The notes under the pieces are model-generated. The model did no database searches, was not told the DNA's origin, and worked only from the letters and a program-made list of their open reading frames with translations. Positions 22,187-38,858 of a DNA stretch of 45,350 nucleotides are shown here, in pieces. Within the stretch, counting starts at the first letter, position 1; each line of letters opens with the position of its first letter. The position numbers were made by a program, and so were the translations under genes. Source of the stretch: an uncultured Eubacteriales bacterium (GTDB lineage: Bacteria > Bacillota_I > Bacilli_A > RF39 > UBA660); assembly GCA_900320735.1 (NCBI GenBank), contig ONTJ01000030.1, forward strand, positions 1 to 45,350. Direction: 5' to 3'.

Positions 22187-22501
22187 ATGATAGATTATAA
22201 TATTGAATTTACAAAAGGAGTATTATTTATTAGACTTTTTGGCACTCTAAGTAAACTTAATTGCAATGATATCGAATTTGATTTGGTTGAGATTATAAAA
22301 GATGGTGGAATTAAATACCTAGTTTTTAATATTGAAGATTTAAAAATCGATGGGGATGTTTCTTTATTTCATGACTGCTGTGAAATTGTAAAGGAAAATG
22401 GTGGAAGAATGCTTTTATGTACTAATAAAGATAATTATATAGATGATTTTGAATTAATTGATGATGAATTATCTGCATTTAAGGTGTTTAGCGTATGTTA
22501 G
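22187..22501 (+). CDS. spoIIAA: Anti-sigma-factor antagonist SpoIIAA-like STAS protein
   Basis: This 104-residue STAS-domain protein lies directly before a sigma-F-like gene and upstream of spoVA genes, as in the classic spoIIA-spoVA order. In B. subtilis, SpoIIAA binds the anti-sigma factor SpoIIAB and frees sigma-F; its Ser in DSSG is the phosphorylation switch. Here the matching region is NIEDLKIDGDVSLF (48-61): the core strand NIEDL is kept but DSSG is not, and an Asp lies where one alignment puts the Ser. GGR at 72-74 matches the later GGE. It overlaps the next gene by 7 bases. Identity rests on context plus fold pattern. Confidence 0.8.
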   Translation: MIDYNIEFTKGVLFIRLFGTLSKLNCNDIEFDLVEIIKDGGIKYLVFNIEDLKIDGDVSLFHDCCEIVKENGGRMLLCTNKDNYIDDFELIDDELSAFKVFSVC

Positions 22502-23118
22502 AAATTTCAAATGAAATGTATAATTTACTTTTAAAAAAAGTAAATTTCATCGCTTCAAAATACAGTGGTCATTATAATAAAGAAGATTTAATTCAAGCAG
22601 GTATGCTTGGAGTAGTTAAGGCAAGAGATAAATTTGATGAAAAATTGGGTGTTAAATTTTCTACTTTTTGTGAACTTTATATAAAAGGGGAAATATTAGA
22701 TTTTATTAGAAAAGATAAAAATATAAGAGTAAGCAGAGATTTTATAAAATTAAAAAAGAAGGTAGATTATGTTAATGAGAATAGTAAGAATAAATTATCT
22801 ATAGACCAATTATCTACTATTTTGAATGAAGATCAAAGCAAGATACTTGAGGTTCTTACTTTTGATCAAAATGTAAGTAGTATAGATGAAAAAGGATTGT
22901 CTATAGCAGAAAAAGAAAAGATTGATTTAATTGATTATATTTCTTTGAAAGATGCATTTAACGAATTAGACGATGAAGAGAAGAGATTAATTGAAGAAAG
23001 ATATTACTATGGTAAAACTCAAAGTGAGATTGCAAAAAATATGAATATATCACAAGTTAAGGTATATAGGTTAGAAAGAAAAATATTAGATAAATTGGGT
23101 AATAAATTAGCGTCATAG
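22495..23118 (+). CDS. sigF: Forespore-type sigma factor, SigF-like
   Basis: This 207-residue sigma-70-family protein is shorter than B. subtilis SigF (255). Region 2 is clear at about 31-82: EDLIQAGMLGVVKARDKFD, then VKFSTF, IKGEILDFIRKD and RVSRD. Region 4 is at about 156-203: ELDDEEKRLIEERYYYGKTQ, then SEIAKNMNISQVKVYRLERK. These match SigF/SigG rather than the housekeeping factor. The linker and region 3 are reduced. Translation is coupled to spoIIAA by overlap. No anti-sigma gene lies between them. It is followed by a terminator, which separates it from spoVAC. Confidence 0.9.
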   Translation: MLEISNEMYNLLLKKVNFIASKYSGHYNKEDLIQAGMLGVVKARDKFDEKLGVKFSTFCELYIKGEILDFIRKDKNIRVSRDFIKLKKKVDYVNENSKNKLSIDQLSTILNEDQSKILEVLTFDQNVSSIDEKGLSIAEKEKIDLIDYISLKDAFNELDDEEKRLIEERYYYGKTQSEIAKNMNISQVKVYRLERKILDKLGNKLAS

Positions 23119-24957: not shown

Positions 24958-24986
24958 TTGACAAATTAAAATTATTAAGATATTAT
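24958..24986 (+). promoter_or_regulatory. Strong promoter for the first fibre protein gene
   Basis: TTGACA (24958-24963), 17 bases, TATTAT (24981-24986): a near-consensus vegetative promoter directly after the spoVA genes. Confidence 0.85.
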
Positions 24987-25025
24987 TAAGGTGTAATATA
25001 TGATAGGGAAGGAGAAGTATTTTAG

Positions 25026-25673
25026 ATGAATAGCGAAAAAGGTAAAAATATTTTATTAGGTGTATTGATAGTAGGTTTAGTAGCAATGACAGTTGCATAT
25101 GCAGCACTTTCTACAACATTAACTATTAATGGTTCGGTAACAGTACCAACAACTACATGGGATATACATTTTGCAAATGTTTCAGATGCAACTGGTACTA
25201 CAAATACACTTGGAGGAACTAATGAAGGTAGAGTAGTAGCTCTAGGAACTTTAGATAGTAACTCAAATAATACTACAGGAGTAACTTTCTCAGGATTAGA
25301 AATTTCACTAGCAAAACCTGGTGACTGGGCTCAAGTAAATTTTGATATCGTTAATGCAGGTACAATTGATGCTAAATTAGGAAGTTTTACAAAAACTATC
25401 CAAAAACAAGGTTTACAAACTGAAAGTAGTGAAGATACATATGATGGCATAACTTATACAGTTACTTGTGGTGCATCTAGAGATAGTGGTGTTAAACCTG
25501 TAGCATTAGCATCTGCACAAGAGTTAGTTAAATCAACTGGAACATTACAATGTAAATTATATGTTCATTATGACGAATTAACTAATAACCATGAAGCAGG
25601 TTCTGATCAAACATTAAACTCATCAGCAAAAATATTCAATCTAGCAGCTCAATGGCAATATATTCAAAAATAA
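25026..25673 (+). CDS. TasA/camelysin-like fibre protein with SipW-type signal peptide
   Basis: This 215-residue secreted protein has a signal segment (about residues 8-26) ending VAYA/ALSTTL, typical of SipW-processed proteins. The mature domain shows TWDIHFANVS, a conserved AKPGDWAQVNFDIVNAGTIDAKLGSF (about 96-121), and a C-terminus ending in QWQYIQK. These resemble TasA/CalY fibre proteins of Bacillota. Two Cys could form a disulfide. Two paralogues and a SipW-like peptidase follow, which strongly supports the call. AGGAGAAG is the ribosome binding site. It has its own promoter and terminator, so it may be the main subunit. Confidence 0.85.
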   Translation: MNSEKGKNILLGVLIVGLVAMTVAYAALSTTLTINGSVTVPTTTWDIHFANVSDATGTTNTLGGTNEGRVVALGTLDSNSNNTTGVTFSGLEISLAKPGDWAQVNFDIVNAGTIDAKLGSFTKTIQKQGLQTESSEDTYDGITYTVTCGASRDSGVKPVALASAQELVKSTGTLQCKLYVHYDELTNNHEAGSDQTLNSSAKIFNLAAQWQYIQK

Positions 25674-25677
25674 TACG

Positions 25678-25701
25678 ACACAGTGTAAACTGTGTTTTTT
25701 A
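25678..25701 (+). terminator. Intrinsic terminator
   Basis: ACACAGT (25678-25684) pairs with ACTGTGT (25689-25695) around GTAA, followed by T's. Confidence 0.93.
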
Positions 25702-25705
25702 TTCG

Positions 25706-25734
25706 TTGACTTTTTTGTTTATTTAATGTATATT
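25706..25734 (+). promoter_or_regulatory. Promoter for the second fibre protein gene
   Basis: TTGACT (25706-25711), 17 bases, TATATT (25729-25734), 25 bases before the ATG. Confidence 0.8.
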
Positions 25735-25759
25735 TGATATGAGATAGAAGGTGTGATAA

Positions 25760-26320
25760 ATGTCCAGTAATAAAAAAAATATATTTTTAGTAATACTTAT
25801 TATAGGCGTTTTATCGATGAGTATAGCATTTGCTGCGCTGTCTTCAAGACTTTCAATAAGTGGTAGTGTTGGAGTCTCTGAAACAACATGGGATATTCGT
25901 TTTCAAAATTTTTCATCATCATCTACACCACAGACTACTACACTTGGAGAAACCAATACTGGTGTTCTTAAATCAGTAACAACTAATGCTACTAAAATTA
26001 CAAATTTGAAAGTTGATTTAAAGAAACCTGGAGATATAGTAATATATACATTTGATATTAAAAATAATGGCTCAATTGATGCTAGACTATCAACATTTAC
26101 TCAGTCTATGACATGTGAAGTTGATAATTTGTGTGGGTATGCAGATTATTTGGTTGAATGTCGTGATAGCAATAATAAAGTAGTTGCTCTAGGTGATACG
26201 CTATCTAAAAATTCATCATATAGTTGTAGTGTGACAATTAAATATAATGATAGCTATAATACACTTGATGATGATGTTAATGCATCTTTGACTGCAGATT
26301 TTCAATTTGTTCAAAAATAG
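25760..26320 (+). CDS. Second TasA/camelysin-like fibre protein
   Basis: The 186-residue paralogue of the upstream protein has a signal segment ending IAFA/ALSSRL. The shared pattern runs TWDIRFQNFS, LKKPGDIVIYTFDIKNNGSIDARLSTF and C-terminal DFQFVQK. It carries four Cys in the mature part (MTCEV, NLCG, VECRD, YSCSV), more than the first protein, so two disulfides are possible. AAGGTG precedes the ATG. It has its own promoter and terminator, so its level could be set separately. It could be a minor subunit or cap, as inferred by analogy. Confidence 0.85.
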   Translation: MSSNKKNIFLVILIIGVLSMSIAFAALSSRLSISGSVGVSETTWDIRFQNFSSSSTPQTTTLGETNTGVLKSVTTNATKITNLKVDLKKPGDIVIYTFDIKNNGSIDARLSTFTQSMTCEVDNLCGYADYLVECRDSNNKVVALGDTLSKNSSYSCSVTIKYNDSYNTLDDDVNASLTADFQFVQK

Positions 26321-26341
26321 GCATATATTATATGCCTTTTT
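26319..26341 (+). terminator. Intrinsic terminator
   Basis: AGGCATAT (26319-26326) pairs with ATATGCCT (26330-26337) around ATT, followed by T's. The TAG stop is at the base of the stem. Confidence 0.93.
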
Positions 26342-26398
26342 ATTGACTTTGTATGTTTGGTATGTTAAAATTTTATTGTATGATAGGGGCGTCATAAT

Positions 26399-26956
26399 AT
26401 GGATAGTGTAAAACGTGATTACAAGGATATTTTGATTGTAATATTACTAATAGGTATACTAGCGATGACTATTGTATATGCTAATTTTACAAGGCGTCTT
26501 GATATTGTTTCCGCTGGAGAACTTAGAGCATCTGACTGGAATGTGCATTTTGAAAATTTAGTTAAATCGGATTCATCAACTGCTAGAGTATCTTCCCCTG
26601 CAGTTATATTAGATGGTAAAACAGTTATAAGTGGTTTAAATATAACACTTGAAAAACCAGGCGATTATATTAAGTATACATTTGATATATATAATGCAGG
26701 CAAAATGGATGCTAGATTAGATGGTTTTACACATAATAATCCAGAATGTGTACCAAGTTCTTATATATGTGATAATTTAATATATACGATTGAGTATACC
26801 GATGAAAGCACAATAAAACTGGGTGATATTTTGAAACCAGGTCAGAGAAGAAATGTAACACTTATTATCAAATTAAGTGAAAAAATTGATAGTATGCCTT
26901 TAGAAAAAGTAAGTATTTCAGATTTTAGTACGACATTCTATTATGTTCAAAAATAA
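26399..26956 (+). CDS. Third TasA/camelysin-like fibre protein
   Basis: The 185-residue third paralogue has a signal segment ending IVYA/NFTRRL, so the usual ALS after the cleavage site is replaced. Shared features are DWNVHFENL, LEKPGDYIKYTFDIYNAGKMDARLDGF and the end FYYVQK. Two Cys lie at NPEC and YICD. Unlike the other two it has no terminator after it; the signal peptidase gene starts 15 bases downstream. It may be a dedicated partner or initiator, like TapA in the B. subtilis operon; that analogy is inference. Confidence 0.83.
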   Translation: MDSVKRDYKDILIVILLIGILAMTIVYANFTRRLDIVSAGELRASDWNVHFENLVKSDSSTARVSSPAVILDGKTVISGLNITLEKPGDYIKYTFDIYNAGKMDARLDGFTHNNPECVPSSYICDNLIYTIEYTDESTIKLGDILKPGQRRNVTLIIKLSEKIDSMPLEKVSISDFSTTFYYVQK

Positions 26957-26971
26957 AAGAGGGAGATATGA

Positions 26972-28102
26972 ATGAAAACTAGCGTAAAAAAGTGTTTATG
27001 CATTGAAATATTTTTAGGACTTGTTTCAATAATTAATTTCATGTTTCCTAAATTATTCGATCATGAACTACATATTTTGTTTTTATTAGCAGCACTAGGT
27101 GCAATATTTATATTATTCGGTATAGATATTAAAAGGGATGCTAACGATAGAAAAATAATGAAAAATATACTTATCTATTTATTAGTATATTATTTAGTTA
27201 TATATTTATTTGGATTATATATTGGTTTTGCAAAAACAATATATAGTTTTACATTTACGAATTTTACTAAAAATATAATGCCGACATTTGTGACAATAGT
27301 ATTAATGGAATTTATAAGACATGAACTAATTAGTAAATCAAATAAAAATAAATTAGTTTTAGTTACTTCATGTATATTGTTTATAATATTTGAAATGAGT
27401 AAGAATTTTCCTGCTTATAATTTTGGAGTAAAAGATGAAATTTATAAATATGTTGGTTTAATAATAATTGCAAGTATAACAAAAAATATATTTATGACAA
27501 TAATGCATAGTAGGACTGATGTATATCCTGCAATTATGTATAGAACGATAGTTGAAGAATTAATATATGTGTGTGTTATTTTTCCGAATATTGGTCCTTA
27601 TCTTGAATCAATTGCATTAATAATATTACCAGTATTACTTTCAATAATGGTTATGGCTACTACAAAAAATCAGATTTTAAATAAGCCAAAAGACAAAAGG
27701 AAGGGTAATAAACTATATTTTGTAGTTGTTGTTATATTATTAATATTAGTTGGTCTAAACTCAGGATTTTTTAAATATCAAATAATGGTAATAGGTTCAA
27801 ATTCAATGCTTCCTTATATGGAAAAAGGTGATGTTGTATTAATAGATAAATTAAATGAGGATGCAAGATCATCATTAAACGAAGGTGATATATTAGCATT
27901 TAAATATGATAATAAGGTTATAACCCATAGAATTACTAAAAAGGTAATTAAGAATGAAAAAGCTTATTACACAACAAAGGGTGATAATAATAATCAAGAA
28001 GATAATACAGTAATTGCAGAAGCAAGTGTCGTAGGGAAGGTTTTAACAAGATTTAAATATTTAGGACTACCAAGTGTTTGGTTAAATGAATTATTTAATT
28101 AG
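26972..28102 (+). CDS. SipW-like ER-type signal peptidase I with a large N-terminal membrane module
   Basis: This protein is 376 residues. The last ~120 form an S26B (ER-type) signal peptidase: Ser278 in GSNSMLP, His319 in ITHRI in place of the usual bacterial Lys, and a GDN motif at 337-339 (TTKGDNN). In B. subtilis SipW, such an enzyme processes TasA and TapA. The first ~260 residues hold about seven extra membrane segments, whereas SipW itself is about 190 residues with two. The extra part contains a conserved-looking RTIVEELIYV but no domain I can name. GAGGGAG precedes the ATG. It follows the third fibre gene and precedes a DUF5305-like gene. Confidence 0.9.
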   Translation: MKTSVKKCLCIEIFLGLVSIINFMFPKLFDHELHILFLLAALGAIFILFGIDIKRDANDRKIMKNILIYLLVYYLVIYLFGLYIGFAKTIYSFTFTNFTKNIMPTFVTIVLMEFIRHELISKSNKNKLVLVTSCILFIIFEMSKNFPAYNFGVKDEIYKYVGLIIIASITKNIFMTIMHSRTDVYPAIMYRTIVEELIYVCVIFPNIGPYLESIALIILPVLLSIMVMATTKNQILNKPKDKRKGNKLYFVVVVILLILVGLNSGFFKYQIMVIGSNSMLPYMEKGDVVLIDKLNEDARSSLNEGDILAFKYDNKVITHRITKKVIKNEKAYYTTKGDNNNQEDNTVIAEASVVGKVLTRFKYLGLPSVWLNELFN

Positions 28103-28114
28103 GAGATGAGAAAA

Positions 28115-29119
28115 ATGAAAAAGAATAAGTTAGAGATTATATTAATTTTCGGGATGATTTTATGTGGAATGATCAGTTTATACTTTTATAATGAATCAAA
28201 GGCAATAATAACTACTGACGAGATTAATTATCATGAAAATGGTGGAGTAAATTATAAAGTATATCTAAGTGATAAAAAATATTATAATAGGGAATATTTA
28301 GATGAGGGTATGCAATATATATCTAGTATTATTGATAATATTGAACTTAAGTATAGATATAATGTTAAATATAATTCAAATGATACTTTTGATGTAACAA
28401 CAAGGGTTTTAGCGGATGTTAAAATTGTAGATACTGATAATAATGATAAAGTAATATATTCAAAACAAGAATCTATTAAAGAAGAGAAAACAAGTGGTAA
28501 GGATATAGTTATTGATGATACTATAAAAGTAGATTATAAAAAATATAATGCACTTACTAATTCATTTAAAACAAGTTATGGTATAAATGCTAAATGTAGA
28601 TTAGTAGTTTATTATTATATTCAATATCAAAATAATGGTGGTAACATTCGACAAAATAAAGTTATGACTGTAGAGGTTCCATTATCACAACAAATGATTT
28701 CTATTGTTAAGAGTAATGATATGAATAATAGTTTAACTTATACACTTCAAACTAATGAAGGTTCTATAAATGTATTAATGCTAGTTTTATCATTTATATT
28801 CTTAGCAATAACTTTAATATTATTAGCAACTTTATTTAAAACATTTATTAAAAAGAAAAGTTTAGAAAGTAAATATGATAGATATATAAATAAAATACTT
28901 AGACAATATGATTCTTATATAACTGAATCTAGTGATACTAGTGTAGATGTAAATAAGAATGTAATAAAAGTAAATAGTTTTAAGGAATTACTAGATGTTA
29001 GAAATAATGTAGAAAAAGCTATTGTATACATTAAGTTAGACGAAAATACAAGTAAATTTGTACTTATAGATAATGAAATTTATGAGTATGTAGTAATGAG
29101 AAGTGAAATGGATAAATAA
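28115..29119 (+). CDS. DUF5305-like membrane protein of the fibre operon
   Basis: I prefer ATG 28115 (334 residues) since AGGAG at 28101-28105 touches the upstream in-frame ATG at 28106. It has one membrane segment near the N-terminus (about 6-24), a roughly 180-residue beta-rich outer domain, a second segment (about 220-242) and a ~90-residue cytoplasmic tail. This layout, with NYKVYL near the start and VYYYIQYQ in the middle, fits DUF5305, which I recall next to signal peptidases and TasA-like genes in archaea and Bacillota. A role in assembling or anchoring the fibres is inference. Confidence 0.7.
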   Translation: MKKNKLEIILIFGMILCGMISLYFYNESKAIITTDEINYHENGGVNYKVYLSDKKYYNREYLDEGMQYISSIIDNIELKYRYNVKYNSNDTFDVTTRVLADVKIVDTDNNDKVIYSKQESIKEEKTSGKDIVIDDTIKVDYKKYNALTNSFKTSYGINAKCRLVVYYYIQYQNNGGNIRQNKVMTVEVPLSQQMISIVKSNDMNNSLTYTLQTNEGSINVLMLVLSFIFLAITLILLATLFKTFIKKKSLESKYDRYINKILRQYDSYITESSDTSVDVNKNVIKVNSFKELLDVRNNVEKAIVYIKLDENTSKFVLIDNEIYEYVVMRSEMDK

Positions 29120-29127
29120 TCCATTTT
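29106..29127 (+). terminator. Intrinsic terminator of the fibre operon
   Basis: AAATGGAT (29106-29113) pairs with ATCCATTT (29119-29126); the TAA stop is in the loop. T's follow. Confidence 0.9.
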
Positions 29128-29180: not shown

Positions 29181-29627
29181 ATGAAAAAAGGTTATACTTT
29201 AGTAGAACTTTTAGCAGTTATAGTTGTATTATCAATTATATTATCAATTGTGTCAATCAACGTACTTAAATACTATAATAGTAGGAGACAAAATGACTAT
29301 AATAATATAGTTTCTATTACAATAGAAAATGCTAAAGTATTAGTCAATACTAATACTAAAATATCTAATTTAGTAAATGATAATTTACAAAAAAAAGAAG
29401 AAAATGGTGAAACAAATATTTTTTGTAATTTAAGTTATGGCGAATTAGTAAAAGCTAAACTCATGGATAAAGATACTAAAAATCCTCTAAACAATAAAAT
29501 AATTGATTCTAAGTCATATATAAAAATTACAGTTGATTCTGATTATAATTATGGTTATGAGTTTATATATGTAGATGATGAGGATGCAGCATATTCGGAT
29601 AGTGACGATTGTCTATATGTGGAATAA
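29181..29627 (+). CDS. Class III pseudopilin
   Basis: This 148-residue protein begins KKG/YTLVELLAVIVVLSII, a prepilin signal with Gly before the cut and Glu at mature position 5. The hydrophobic helix is followed by a compact polar domain with two Cys, LSYGELVKAKLMDKDTKNP and an acidic C-terminus. Such proteins need a prepilin peptidase and an assembly ATPase; neither is in this window. AAGGTGAT precedes the ATG. It is a single-gene unit between terminators. Confidence 0.9.
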   Translation: MKKGYTLVELLAVIVVLSIILSIVSINVLKYYNSRRQNDYNNIVSITIENAKVLVNTNTKISNLVNDNLQKKEENGETNIFCNLSYGELVKAKLMDKDTKNPLNNKIIDSKSYIKITVDSDYNYGYEFIYVDDEDAAYSDSDDCLYVE

Positions 29628-35672: not shown

Positions 35673-35697
35673 TATATTAGAATAGAGAGGATTGCTT

Positions 35698-36288
35698 ATG
35701 AGAAGGTTATTAAATATACTTATTTTTGTCTTGATCTTTGTTTTATATTTTGTAACTTTTTTGATGATATACTCTGATTTTAGAGAAAGAAAACTTAATA
35801 GTTTAGAAGAAGAAGCAGTTGAATTATTTGAAAATAAAATAGATAAAAAAGTTGAACCTTCTACTTCAGATAAAACATATTCAATTAGCTATAATGGTTA
35901 TACAATACTTGGTGTTTTAACTATACCTAAAATAGGATTAAATACTGTTATATTAAAGGAACAAACATATTCTGCAATGAATATAGGCGCAATTAAAACA
36001 TATGGGGTTAATTTAAATGAAAAGGGTGGAAATGTAATATCAGGGCATAACTTTAGAGGACACGGCTCATTTTTTTACTATATTAAAAATTTAAAAAGTG
36101 GCGATATTATTTCGATTACGGATAATAGAGGGAGAACTATAGAATATAAAGTTTATGAAGTTTCAAGATATGTTAGTCCTGATGATACTAGTTATTATAC
36201 TAGATATGATGGGTACCATATTACACTAGTAACATGCGAAAATGGTGGCAAATCTAGAATAATAGTAAAGGCACGTTATGACGAATAA
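35698..36288 (+). CDS. Sortase
   Basis: I start this at ATG 35698 (196 residues), with GAGAGG well placed; the in-frame TTG at 35692 is less likely. A signal anchor (about 3-24) precedes the sortase barrel. The catalytic set is His117 (ISGHNFRG), Cys180 (TLVTCENG) and Arg187 (KSRIIV). The TLVTC pattern and small size fit class D-like or other housekeeping sortases, but class cannot be fixed. Sortases link surface proteins to the cell wall or to each other. I find no LPXTG-type substrate in this window. Confidence 0.92.
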   Translation: MRRLLNILIFVLIFVLYFVTFLMIYSDFRERKLNSLEEEAVELFENKIDKKVEPSTSDKTYSISYNGYTILGVLTIPKIGLNTVILKEQTYSAMNIGAIKTYGVNLNEKGGNVISGHNFRGHGSFFYYIKNLKSGDIISITDNRGRTIEYKVYEVSRYVSPDDTSYYTRYDGYHITLVTCENGGKSRIIVKARYDE

Positions 36289-36372: not shown

Positions 36373-38007
36373 ATGGATGATAGAAATAATATTTTCTTTG
36401 ATGATGAACTTGATTTTGAACCAGTTCCTTCTAGTGAGATAGTAAGTAGCGAAGTTAAAAATGAAAGTATAAAACATAAAATATTTATAGGTACTTCTAA
36501 AATATTACCTATAATTGCTTTTGTGTTTGTATCAATTTTAGGAGTTTATATATTTGTAAATAATGTTAAAGCCGATGTAATAAATCTCATTAAAATAGAA
36601 TCAAATCAGAAAGTTGGATATATTAACAATAGTGGTAGTGAAGTTGTTAAACCTAAATACTTATATGGTAGTGATTTTCATAGCGGATATGCGGTTGTGA
36701 AAAATTATAATAATCTATATGGTATTATAAATGGAAGAGGTAATAATGAAATTCAATTTGGTAATATATTTTCAGCTAATTTATATGGTAATAGATATAT
36801 AGTGTCAAAATTTACTGATAAGGGTTTGAAAATGGGATTACTTGATAGTCATTTAAATGAAGTTACAAGATTTAAGTATGATAATATTACTTATTCAAAA
36901 TCAGGTATATTTATGTATACAATTGATGATAAAATGGGAATTTTAAATAACGACGGAACTGAGATATATTCATATAAAGTTGATGAAGTGGATGACAAAA
37001 ATATATCAATAGAAATATCAACACTTACAAATAATGAAAAAAGTATGTATGCTAAAGTAAAGATTAATTCATCATCTACTATAATAAATTTACAAACAGG
37101 TAAAGAAGTATATAAATATACCCTAGATGATATAAGAGTTCTTGATAATAATGTGTTTTATATAAAAAAAGAAGATGAAAATAATAGATATTTCATAATA
37201 AAAGATGATAAGGTAGTGTACGAGACAAATTTATATAAAAGAATAAGAGTAGAGGATGTAAATTCTGATGTTGCAATTGGTATAAAAGAAGATGCAACTA
37301 TAGACTATATAAATTTGCTTACAAGAGAAAAAATTAATACAAATGATAATGTTAAATATACTTATTCTGATGGTATTGTGCTTGAAGAATCCTATGATTT
37401 TATAAGTAAAAAAAATGAATATACAGTAATTACTCCAAGTAAAGTTATAGGAAAATTTACTGACGTAGTACCTGTCGATGATACATATGTAAATGGTTAT
37501 ATGAAAATATATACAGATAATAAAAAATATAGTTTCATTGATAAAAGAGGTAATGTAATAACTGATAAAGAATTTGAATATGTTAGTGATTTTAATAAAA
37601 ATGGCTATGCAATTGTTTCAAATAATAATCAATATGGGGTTTTAGATTCTCAAGGTAGAGAAGTGTTAAATACAAAATATGATGAAATTATATTTTTAGA
37701 TGATACTTTATTTAGTAATTTAAATGATAAATTATTTATATACAAGGAAAATAACAAATATGGTATAATAAATGCAAATAAAAAAGTTGTAGTTAAAAAT
37801 ATATATGATAAATTTGATATTATAACTACAAAATATCCTATAATCAAAGCGATATATAATGAAGATAGTATATTAGTTAATTTAAAAACATATAGGGACT
37901 TATCAATAGATTCAACTGGTAATATTCAGATATATGATGAATATATAGTATCTGATGATAACTATTATAATTATGATGGAGAATTGATATATAGTATAGG
38001 AGGGTGA
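36373..38007 (+). CDS. WG-repeat membrane protein
   Basis: The 544-residue protein has a ~40-residue acidic cytoplasmic start, one membrane segment (about 42-62) and a long outer repeat domain. The repeats follow the WG/KWG pattern: KVGYINNSGSEVVKPKY, LYGIINGRGNNEIQ, KMGILNNDGTEIY, KYSFIDKRGNVITDKEF, QYGVLDSQGREVLNTKYDEI and KYGIINANKKVVVKNIYDKF, with YG in place of the usual WG. They probably form a beta-propeller-like surface domain. AGGAGG precedes the ATG. Its stop lies 2 bases before the pseudopilin start, within that gene's ribosome binding site. Confidence 0.85.
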   Translation: MDDRNNIFFDDELDFEPVPSSEIVSSEVKNESIKHKIFIGTSKILPIIAFVFVSILGVYIFVNNVKADVINLIKIESNQKVGYINNSGSEVVKPKYLYGSDFHSGYAVVKNYNNLYGIINGRGNNEIQFGNIFSANLYGNRYIVSKFTDKGLKMGLLDSHLNEVTRFKYDNITYSKSGIFMYTIDDKMGILNNDGTEIYSYKVDEVDDKNISIEISTLTNNEKSMYAKVKINSSSTIINLQTGKEVYKYTLDDIRVLDNNVFYIKKEDENNRYFIIKDDKVVYETNLYKRIRVEDVNSDVAIGIKEDATIDYINLLTREKINTNDNVKYTYSDGIVLEESYDFISKKNEYTVITPSKVIGKFTDVVPVDDTYVNGYMKIYTDNKKYSFIDKRGNVITDKEFEYVSDFNKNGYAIVSNNNQYGVLDSQGREVLNTKYDEIIFLDDTLFSNLNDKLFIYKENNKYGIINANKKVVVKNIYDKFDIITTKYPIIKAIYNEDSILVNLKTYRDLSIDSTGNIQIYDEYIVSDDNYYNYDGELIYSIGG

Positions 38008-38009
38008 CT

Positions 38010-38858
38010 ATGAAAAAAGGATTTACGTTAATAGAAATTTTATCGGTAATAGTAATACTTGCGGTTATAAGTATAATCGCCTATCCTAAGATAATTGATG
38101 TGATATCAATAAGCAAAGTAAGTGCATATAACAGTGCTAAAGGTAATATAATTGAAAGTGCAAAATTAAAATATTTAGCAGATGTTAATAGCGCTAAAGT
38201 AATAGAATATACTGTAGATGATTTAATAAGTAGTGGTTATTTAGATAAGAATACAAAAAATCCAATTACTATGAAAAATTATGAAGATACTAAAGTGTTA
38301 GTAACTGCACATGATAATGATGTGTCATTTAATTACGTTGATGGTAAAACTTTATATGACGTTGTAAGTGAGCAAGATGATTCAAGCGGATTATATAAAT
38401 ATGATGATGAATATGTATTTAAAGGATCAAATCCAAGAAATTATGTCTCATTTGATGGACAAATATATAGAATACTAAAAACAGATGAATATCATAGTAT
38501 ATATTTATTAAAAGATGAGGAAATTACTCACATAAAAAAAGATGGTTTAAACAGTTATATTAATTCATATTATAATGATAACTATCTTGAAAAAGTAAAA
38601 AATAATCTTATTTCATTTAGTTTATTATCATATAGTGATTACTTAAATTCATTTATTAATGATGAAACATATATTATCAATAATAGTAGTATTTGGGTAG
38701 AATATTCAGATAGTTTTAAATATTTATCATATTTAACAAATGAGTTAACTGATTTAGATAATTATGGTAATGTGAGATTTGTATTAAAACTAAAAAATTA
38801 TTTAACTGTATTGAGTGGAGATGGTTCTCAGCTTAATCCATATGTAGTAAATGAATAA
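38010..38858 (+). CDS. Class III pseudopilin with enlarged C-terminal domain
   Basis: I choose ATG 38010 (282 residues); the GTG at 38004 is part of the ribosome binding site (GGAGGG 37999-38004). The start MKKG/FTLIEILSVIVILAVI is a textbook prepilin motif with Glu at mature position 5. After the helix comes VDDLISSGYLDKNTKNP, shared with other Gram-positive pilins, then an extra ~150-residue domain (about 130-280) with IYRILKTDEYHSIYLLKDEE, and the end SGDGSQLNPYVV. That last motif and domain are common in outer domains of surface proteins. It is coupled to the WG-repeat gene, so the two may act together. Confidence 0.88.
   Translation: MKKGFTLIEILSVIVILAVISIIAYPKIIDVISISKVSAYNSAKGNIIESAKLKYLADVNSAKVIEYTVDDLISSGYLDKNTKNPITMKNYEDTKVLVTAHDNDVSFNYVDGKTLYDVVSEQDDSSGLYKYDDEYVFKGSNPRNYVSFDGQIYRILKTDEYHSIYLLKDEEITHIKKDGLNSYINSYYNDNYLEKVKNNLISFSLLSYSDYLNSFINDETYIINNSSIWVEYSDSFKYLSYLTNELTDLDNYGNVRFVLKLKNYLTVLSGDGSQLNPYVVNE

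Follow-up and report, generated by a model that had tools for sequence, protein, structure and literature searches.

In Bacillus subtilis, TasA polymerizes into fibres in which each subunit donates its N-terminal strand to the following one, and the roles of TapA and SipW in this system have been described (PMC9674648). BsaA of Clostridium perfringens also polymerizes, and its secretion needs SipW (PMC7395162); the archaeal AbpA/AbpX bundling pili are a further described system. Here we analyze a 45,350-nt stretch of DNA from an uncultured Eubacteriales bacterium (contig ONTJ01000030.1, hereafter the window) that encodes, in this order, three paralogous secreted proteins (fibre proteins 1, 2 and 3), an endoplasmic reticulum (ER)-type (Ser-His) signal peptidase and a DUF5305 protein. 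We conclude that this cluster is probably a sortase-independent surface fibre system of the TasA or archaeal bundling pilus kind, equipped with a CPBP-like fusion peptidase and DUF5305. The computed evidence, short of polymerization, supports a real fibre system, and what is new here is the combination of TasA/bundling-pilus-like fibres with a CPBP-like/signal peptidase fusion and DUF5305.

The locus resembles tapA-sipW-tasA of B. subtilis in its predicted TasA-like sandwich subunit and in an ER-type signal peptidase that is dedicated to this subunit, shares its operon and cuts just before the donor strand, a cut that is predicted in the window. The A/FF cleavage site of TasA is resembled by that of fibre protein 3. 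However, the fibre genes of the window precede the peptidase gene, there is DUF5305 instead of TapA, and the peptidase carries a CPBP-like N-terminal domain and does not reach the SipW equivalog NF046067 (66.7 bits vs a cut-off of 190). An initial annotation, made from the sequence without database searches, had pointed to this likeness, which our results partly support, and to the different gene order and content, which we confirmed. Relative to AbpA/AbpX, the locus has AbpX as a sequence relative and AbpA as a structural match, but the host is bacterial and the subunits are of ~190 aa with divergent sequence. The sipW-bsaABCRSD operon of C. perfringens is comparable as a SipW-dependent, sortase-independent pellicle fibre system with further secreted proteins in the operon (PMC7395162); unlike the window, it holds a two-component system, and its SipW is described as plain.

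Fibre proteins and their predicted fold

All five open reading frames (ORFs) lie where the initial annotation placed them, and the three secreted paralogues share the signal, core and C-terminal end that it described. The signals of fibre proteins 1, 2 and 3 end in VAYA/ALS, AFA/ALS and VYA/NFT, the cores read AKPGDWAQVNFDIVNAGTIDAKLGSF, KKPGDIVIYTFDIKNNGSIDARLSTF and EKPGDYIKYTFDIYNAGKMDARLDGF, and the proteins finish in YIQK, FVQK and YVQK, respectively. The three score 157-178 bits against one profile, built from an alignment of 46 sequences that comprises them and 43 relatives, and fibre proteins 1 and 2 are 40% identical, so the likeness is not due to chance. A cleavage site could be read in 187 of 206 fibre proteins, with the consensus A/ALSxxLxIxG; among these 187, P2′ is L, F, Y or V in 155, L stands at +6 in 143 and I at +8 in 127. 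Conserved hydrophobic residues after the site are expected for a donor strand freed by the predicted cleavage. TasA too has a bulky P2′ residue, which is poorly cut by Escherichia coli LepB (PMC10269814), providing a reason for a dedicated peptidase. The fibre proteins matched no Pfam or NCBIfam name over its cut-off, and a second, C-terminal conserved membrane segment was not found in them.

The initial annotation had proposed a main fibre and an operon-linked partner. As a general rule, this did not hold. In a tree of 59 fibre proteins from 24 multi-fibre loci, sequences group mostly by locus or close species, and peptidase-proximal fibres are scattered (19 label changes vs 18.8 in shuffles). 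A dedicated TapA-like fibre next to the peptidase was therefore rejected as a rule, there being no clade by position; fibre paralogues arise through local duplication. The three window paralogues have positional counterparts in the closest species (L071), pairing with three of its four fibre proteins, and are therefore older than that split; specialization of paralogues within the genus is possible. Both this pairing and the operon link to the peptidase would agree with fibre protein 3 being a TapA-like initiator that starts or anchors polymers of fibre protein 1. We nevertheless regard such an initiator as unlikely, given that the peptidase-proximal fibres form no clade and that many loci have a single fibre gene. 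Fibre protein 1 would be the likely major subunit, as its gene has the best promoter match and its own terminator.

Structure prediction against TasA, as suggested by the initial annotation, was run on fibre protein 1. In the AlphaFold monomer model, a signal helix (residues 4-27, with predicted cleavage after A26) is followed by a free N-terminal segment (~27-46, with residues 28-46 unpaired) and a beta-sandwich (47-214). The best Foldseek match was the TasA fibre 8aur (E 6.9e-5), the sole match below 1e-3, followed by the archaeal bundling pilus AbpA (7ueg, E 3.7e-3). AbpX, an archaeal bundling pilin, was the only significant solved relative of the 46-fibre profile (E 1.3e-5). Judged from sequence and model, fibre proteins 1-3 are secreted beta-sandwich proteins whose signal ends just before a conserved hydrophobic N-terminal segment, and the free segment of fibre protein 1 fits a candidate donor strand. 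We hypothesize that Sec carries the pre-fibre proteins across the membrane, that the dedicated peptidase would cut them directly before the N-terminal segment, and that the freed segment would act as donor strand, completing the sandwich of the next subunit and leading to polymerization.

Several observations weigh against this reading. The confidence of the fibre protein 1 model is moderate (pLDDT 75.6), AlphaFold modelling covered monomers, and polymerization and signal processing are inferred. Among solved sequences, the profile search did not list TasA up to E 5, and the camelysin/TasA family PF12389 gives 14.4 and 16.8 bits, below its cut-off of 22.5, with no match across the whole genome at E 0.001. 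The TasA-type assignment of the initial annotation was supported by the Foldseek comparison, by donor-strand pilins among the top VIA-align rows and by the co-occurrence and co-linearity of the genes across the family; at the sequence level, the only significant solved relative is AbpX. In VIA-align, the 7pnb thread (Z 7.0), 7ueg (6.5), 8aur (6.0 over 137 aa) and Fim pilins (~6) were matched; the rows at Z 6-7 mix the Sulfolobus thread, TasA, the Pyrobaculum bundling pilus, chaperone-usher pilins and a haloarchaeal pilus with unrelated sandwiches. Such Z values are typical of a common beta-sandwich arrangement.

The proteins could instead be TasA-like sandwich proteins that do not polymerize, for example soluble ligand binders or camelysin-like proteins, served by a peptidase that is merely a dedicated signal peptidase. 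Their weak M73 similarity, the fold match of only Z 6-7 and the indirect nature of the evidence for a polymer are consistent with this. We find it rather improbable, because the best structural and sequence matches are fibre-forming subunits, donor-strand pilins likewise have a hydrophobic, conserved segment that is free and directly follows the cleavage site, and tandem duplication together with a dedicated peptidase fits fibres.

The fusion signal peptidase and the DUF5305 protein

The two further genes were correctly named in the initial annotation: the ER-type signal peptidase scores 83 bits against TIGR02228 (cut-off 51.85), and the DUF5305-like protein scores 53.4 bits against PF17231 (cut-off 29), covering positions 1-217 of 217 of the profile. 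Across 120 aligned peptidase rows, some of them near-duplicates, the catalytic dyad is conserved (S278 99%, H319 99%), and the domain from about residue 238 matches SEC11 and the structure 7p2q (values in the table). From its sequence and model, we assign the C-terminal part to the ER-type Ser-His signal peptidases.

The nature of the fused domain was not visible from the sequence alone, and neither were the fibre-domain adhesins and the spread of the module described below. The N-terminal ~235 residues form eight helices in the model and are present in all full-length relatives. In VIA, they match SpdC (6u0o, Z 12.8 over 221 aa) and Rce1 (4cad, Z 11.7 over 213 aa). Alignment by hhalign with 25 CPBP proteins of related genomes (E 2.4e-5, probability 76%) sets E113 and R116, conserved on helix 4 at 98% and 95%, against the EExxxR motif. 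The best reading is a CPBP-like domain without the usual chemistry that serves as a scaffold. SpdC is an Abi protein with a role in surface protein display (PMC5854430), and the domain may likewise form a scaffold in the membrane on which substrates or partners come together, in the way that SpdC serves SagB in Staphylococcus. The literature searched yielded no description of a CPBP-SipW fusion.

Against this assignment, helical bundles can reach a Z of 12.8 by chance, and the best of six small membrane-family control alignments gave E 1.8e-4, only one order worse than the CPBP match (single-sequence controls were uninformative, as single CPBP proteins failed too). Pfam CPBP (PF02517) had no match in 40 peptidase members at E 0.01. 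In predicted fold, the domain may resemble SpdC of the S. aureus SagB-SpdC pair and Rce1, but it differs from them in its fusion to a signal peptidase, its unconserved CPBP catalytic motifs and its lack of a Pfam CPBP match.

Known CPBP enzymes have EE on TM4 and HxxxN on TM7, and in Myxococcus such enzymes sort surface proteins (PMC11980579). With E113 and R116 conserved on helix 4 at the EExxxR position, the domain could still be catalytic, as an intramembrane protease or a sorting enzyme, and could cut a second time or anchor the fibre, like myxosortase, so that both processing steps reside in one protein. This is very doubtful: the motif spacing is ExxR, not EExxxR; EExxxR, FxxxH and HxxxN are not conserved; the 120 rows hold no conserved histidine in the domain, only one variable His column; and the fibre C-termini have no second conserved membrane segment.

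Three more fibre-domain genes lie elsewhere in the window genome, encoding 382 aa, at least 240 aa (at a contig end) and 1015 aa. In this incomplete genome, a single further signal peptidase I gene and no second fusion-type peptidase were found, so the fusion peptidase probably serves several loci.

Read from its sequence, the DUF5305 protein has N- and C-terminal membrane helices, an outer domain between them and a conserved inner tail; this tail, beyond the second membrane helix, is the most conserved stretch. There is no solved sequence relative, and no mention of DUF5305 was found in the literature searched. We consider it likely to be a membrane platform or anchor, which would hold the growing fibre in the place that TapA has in B. 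subtilis. That position and topology are the only basis for this role weighs against it.

Beside an ER-type signal peptidase, DUF5305 is also present in Halostagnicola larsenii, a haloarchaeon, and in a contig of haloarchaeal appearance (L165), whose peptidase, unlike that of the window, has a C-terminal extension and no CPBP-like N-terminal domain. An annotated peptidase stands beside some, but not all, haloarchaeal DUF5305 genes. We note that L165 (contig 49 of genome G323) carries haloarchaeal proteins in a genome sampled as class Bacilli. MnmG of that genome shares 58% identity with MnmG of the window genome, and the contig is probably contamination. Another Bacilli genome has a run of secreted protein, SipW-like peptidase, secreted protein and DUF5305 fused to an MshEN domain; at L166:8837-10774, a 645-aa DUF5305 protein has its MshEN domain on the inner side. 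The MshEN domain of MshE binds cyclic di-GMP, which suggests that fibre assembly is under signal control where DUF5305 carries MshEN.

Conservation and spread of the module

The genes for fibre, peptidase and DUF5305 make up a conserved module. Of 115 distinct peptidase loci, 94 have the peptidase gene directly between a fibre gene on its upstream side and a DUF5305 gene on its downstream side, with median gaps of 61 and 10 bp, and DUF5305 lies downstream in 107. The co-occurrence search called for by the initial annotation gave an association: among 117 family genomes from 116 genera, a full-length peptidase is present in 49, all of which have DUF5305 and 46 of which have a fibre, and all three are missing from 54 genomes (Fisher p 1e-19 to 3e-23, uncorrected for kinship). 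Within the genus of the window, the peptidase is present in only 4 of 8 genomes, with identities of 32-62%. This patchy presence, together with gene neighbourhoods that vary between loci, is as expected for a module that is lost and transferred. Relatives in named collections come mostly from metagenome-assembled genomes (MAGs) labelled uncultured Bacilli, largely from animal gut, with some labelled Erysipelotrichaceae, Tenericutes or Clostridia.

The complete module was also observed in MAGs labelled Saccharibacteria and Nomurabacteria (L117, L119, L123, L124, L126 and L131). In four Saccharibacteria-labelled loci, the peptidases are ~93-96% identical and the GC content is 0.41-0.43, vs 0.25-0.28 in Bacilli loci. 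MnmG was not found in five tested genomes with Saccharibacteria or Nomurabacteria labels, as would fit bacteria of the candidate phyla radiation, and was present in Bacilli- or Clostridia-labelled and positive-control genomes. We rejected an artefact or binning error on the MnmG absence and GC content, which fit the label without proving it. Transfer of the module between gut Bacilli and Saccharibacteria is likely.

The fibre domain is also part of 41 proteins of larger size, a count in which some loci appear twice; with few exceptions, it stands at the N-terminus, behind the same kind of signal. Their tails include glycine-rich, laminin-G-like lectin, DUF285/leucine-rich repeat (LRR) and Listeria-Bacteroides repeat modules, and such a protein lies within three genes downstream in 25 of the 115 loci. 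Proteins with lectin, LRR or glycine-rich modules may be incorporated into the fibre as adhesive tips or minor subunits.

Gene layout and surroundings

The window is contig 8 of a 0.8-Mb genome that is 72% complete. The initial annotation described separate promoters and terminators for fibre genes 1 and 2 and a fibre gene 3 joined to the peptidase gene, and these sites were found (table). The gap between fibre gene 3 and the peptidase gene is 15 bp, with no terminator in it, and 3 bases separate the peptidase and DUF5305 genes. Promoter-like matches show no excess across the whole region (42 vs a shuffle mean of 43.6), so only place and quality speak for the three sites; terminator-like sites are above chance (4, both strands counted, vs 0.4 expected). 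The third unit may end in a possible hairpin that takes in the stop codon of the DUF5305 gene.

Table. Features of the fibre cluster in window coordinates
Feature	Position	Strand	Basis
Promoter-like site of fibre 1, TTGACA-17-TATTAT	24958..24986	+	Consensus match only
Fibre protein 1, 215 aa	25026..25673	+	ORF; model pLDDT 75.6; best Foldseek match TasA fibre
Terminator of fibre 1 (3′ of gene)	25677..25696	+	Terminator scan
Promoter-like site of fibre 2, TTGACT-17-TATATT	25706..25734	+	Consensus match only
Fibre protein 2, 186 aa	25760..26320	+	ORF; 167 bits to fibre profile
Terminator of fibre 2 (3′ of gene)	26319..26337	+	Terminator scan
Promoter-like site of fibre 3-peptidase-DUF5305 unit, TTGACT-17-TAAAAT	26343..26371	+	Consensus match only
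Fibre protein 3, 185 aa, cleavage site VYA/NFT	26399..26956	+	ORF; 178 bits to fibre profile
Signal peptidase gene (whole)	26972-28102	+	N-terminal membrane domain and peptidase domain
Peptidase N-terminal domain, residues 1-236, eight helices, predicted CPBP/Rce1/SpdC-like	26972..27679	+	Model, VIA, conservation, hhalign
ER-type (SipW/SEC11-like) signal peptidase domain, residues 237-376, Ser278/His319	27680..28102	+	TIGR02228; SEC11 E 1.8e-22; 7p2q Z 12.4
DUF5305 membrane protein, 337 aa	28106..29119	+	PF17231 53.4 bits; conservation; topology read from sequence
Possible terminator of third unit, AAATGGAT-AAATA-ATCCATTT then T-rich	29106..29126	+	Read from sequence; below the GC criterion of the scan

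The DUF5305 gene is followed by genes for a protein whose N-terminus is of prepilin type and for an RNase J-like protein, and by scpA-scpB (the last three names read from sequence). Prepilin-type N-termini (PF07963) occur in two proteins of the window, at 29181-29627, directly after the module, and at 38004-38858. A sortase-domain protein (80.5 bits) is encoded at 35692-36288, ~6.5 kb downstream of the module.

Directly upstream of the fibre genes are genes for a SpoIIAA-type STAS protein and a SigF-like sigma factor, followed by spoVAC, spoVAD and spoVAE. This setting, another fibre-domain gene directly upstream of spoIIGA-sigE in the window genome (L185:4689-6680, contig 17 of G000) and a whole module directly after spoIIGA-sigE in a second species of the genus (L032) could mean that spores, or cells that are sporulating, bear the fibres as appendages or as a coat associated with the spore. 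This is highly improbable: most of the 115 loci showed no sigma factor, SpoIIGA or SpoVA gene in their surroundings, the promoter-like sites belong to the housekeeping type, and the module is shared by genomes with a Saccharibacteria label, a group for which sporulation is not known. A sporulation link was accordingly rejected as the main explanation, there being no general spo neighbourhood. At 22187-23118, sigF and the SpoIIAA-like STAS gene overlap, and spoIIAB is absent between the two. No SpoIIAB over the model cut-off was found in the 8 genomes of the genus, where weak matches sit in long ORFs (339-626 aa), and the anti-sigma factor of SigF seems to be missing or unrecognizable.

Returning to the surface fibre system, we tentatively propose that the CPBP-like/signal peptidase fusion and DUF5305 may mark a separate, transferable class of donor-strand fibre machine in genome-reduced gut Bacilli and Saccharibacteria, with a built-in membrane scaffold, a membrane platform, shaft subunits and interchangeable adhesive tips; DUF5305 would be the platform common to bacterial and haloarchaeal SipW-dependent fibres. 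We hold this broader proposal to be plausible, though somewhat short of probable. It would link a CPBP-type domain with signal-peptide processing in one polypeptide and would propose a role for DUF5305, making it testable whether TasA-like fibres outside Bacillus, which lack TapA, have in DUF5305 their missing component for assembly or anchoring. The uncultured gut bacteria of this family, with genomes of 0.5-1.7 Mb, would gain a surface fibre and adhesin system that is kept despite genome reduction.

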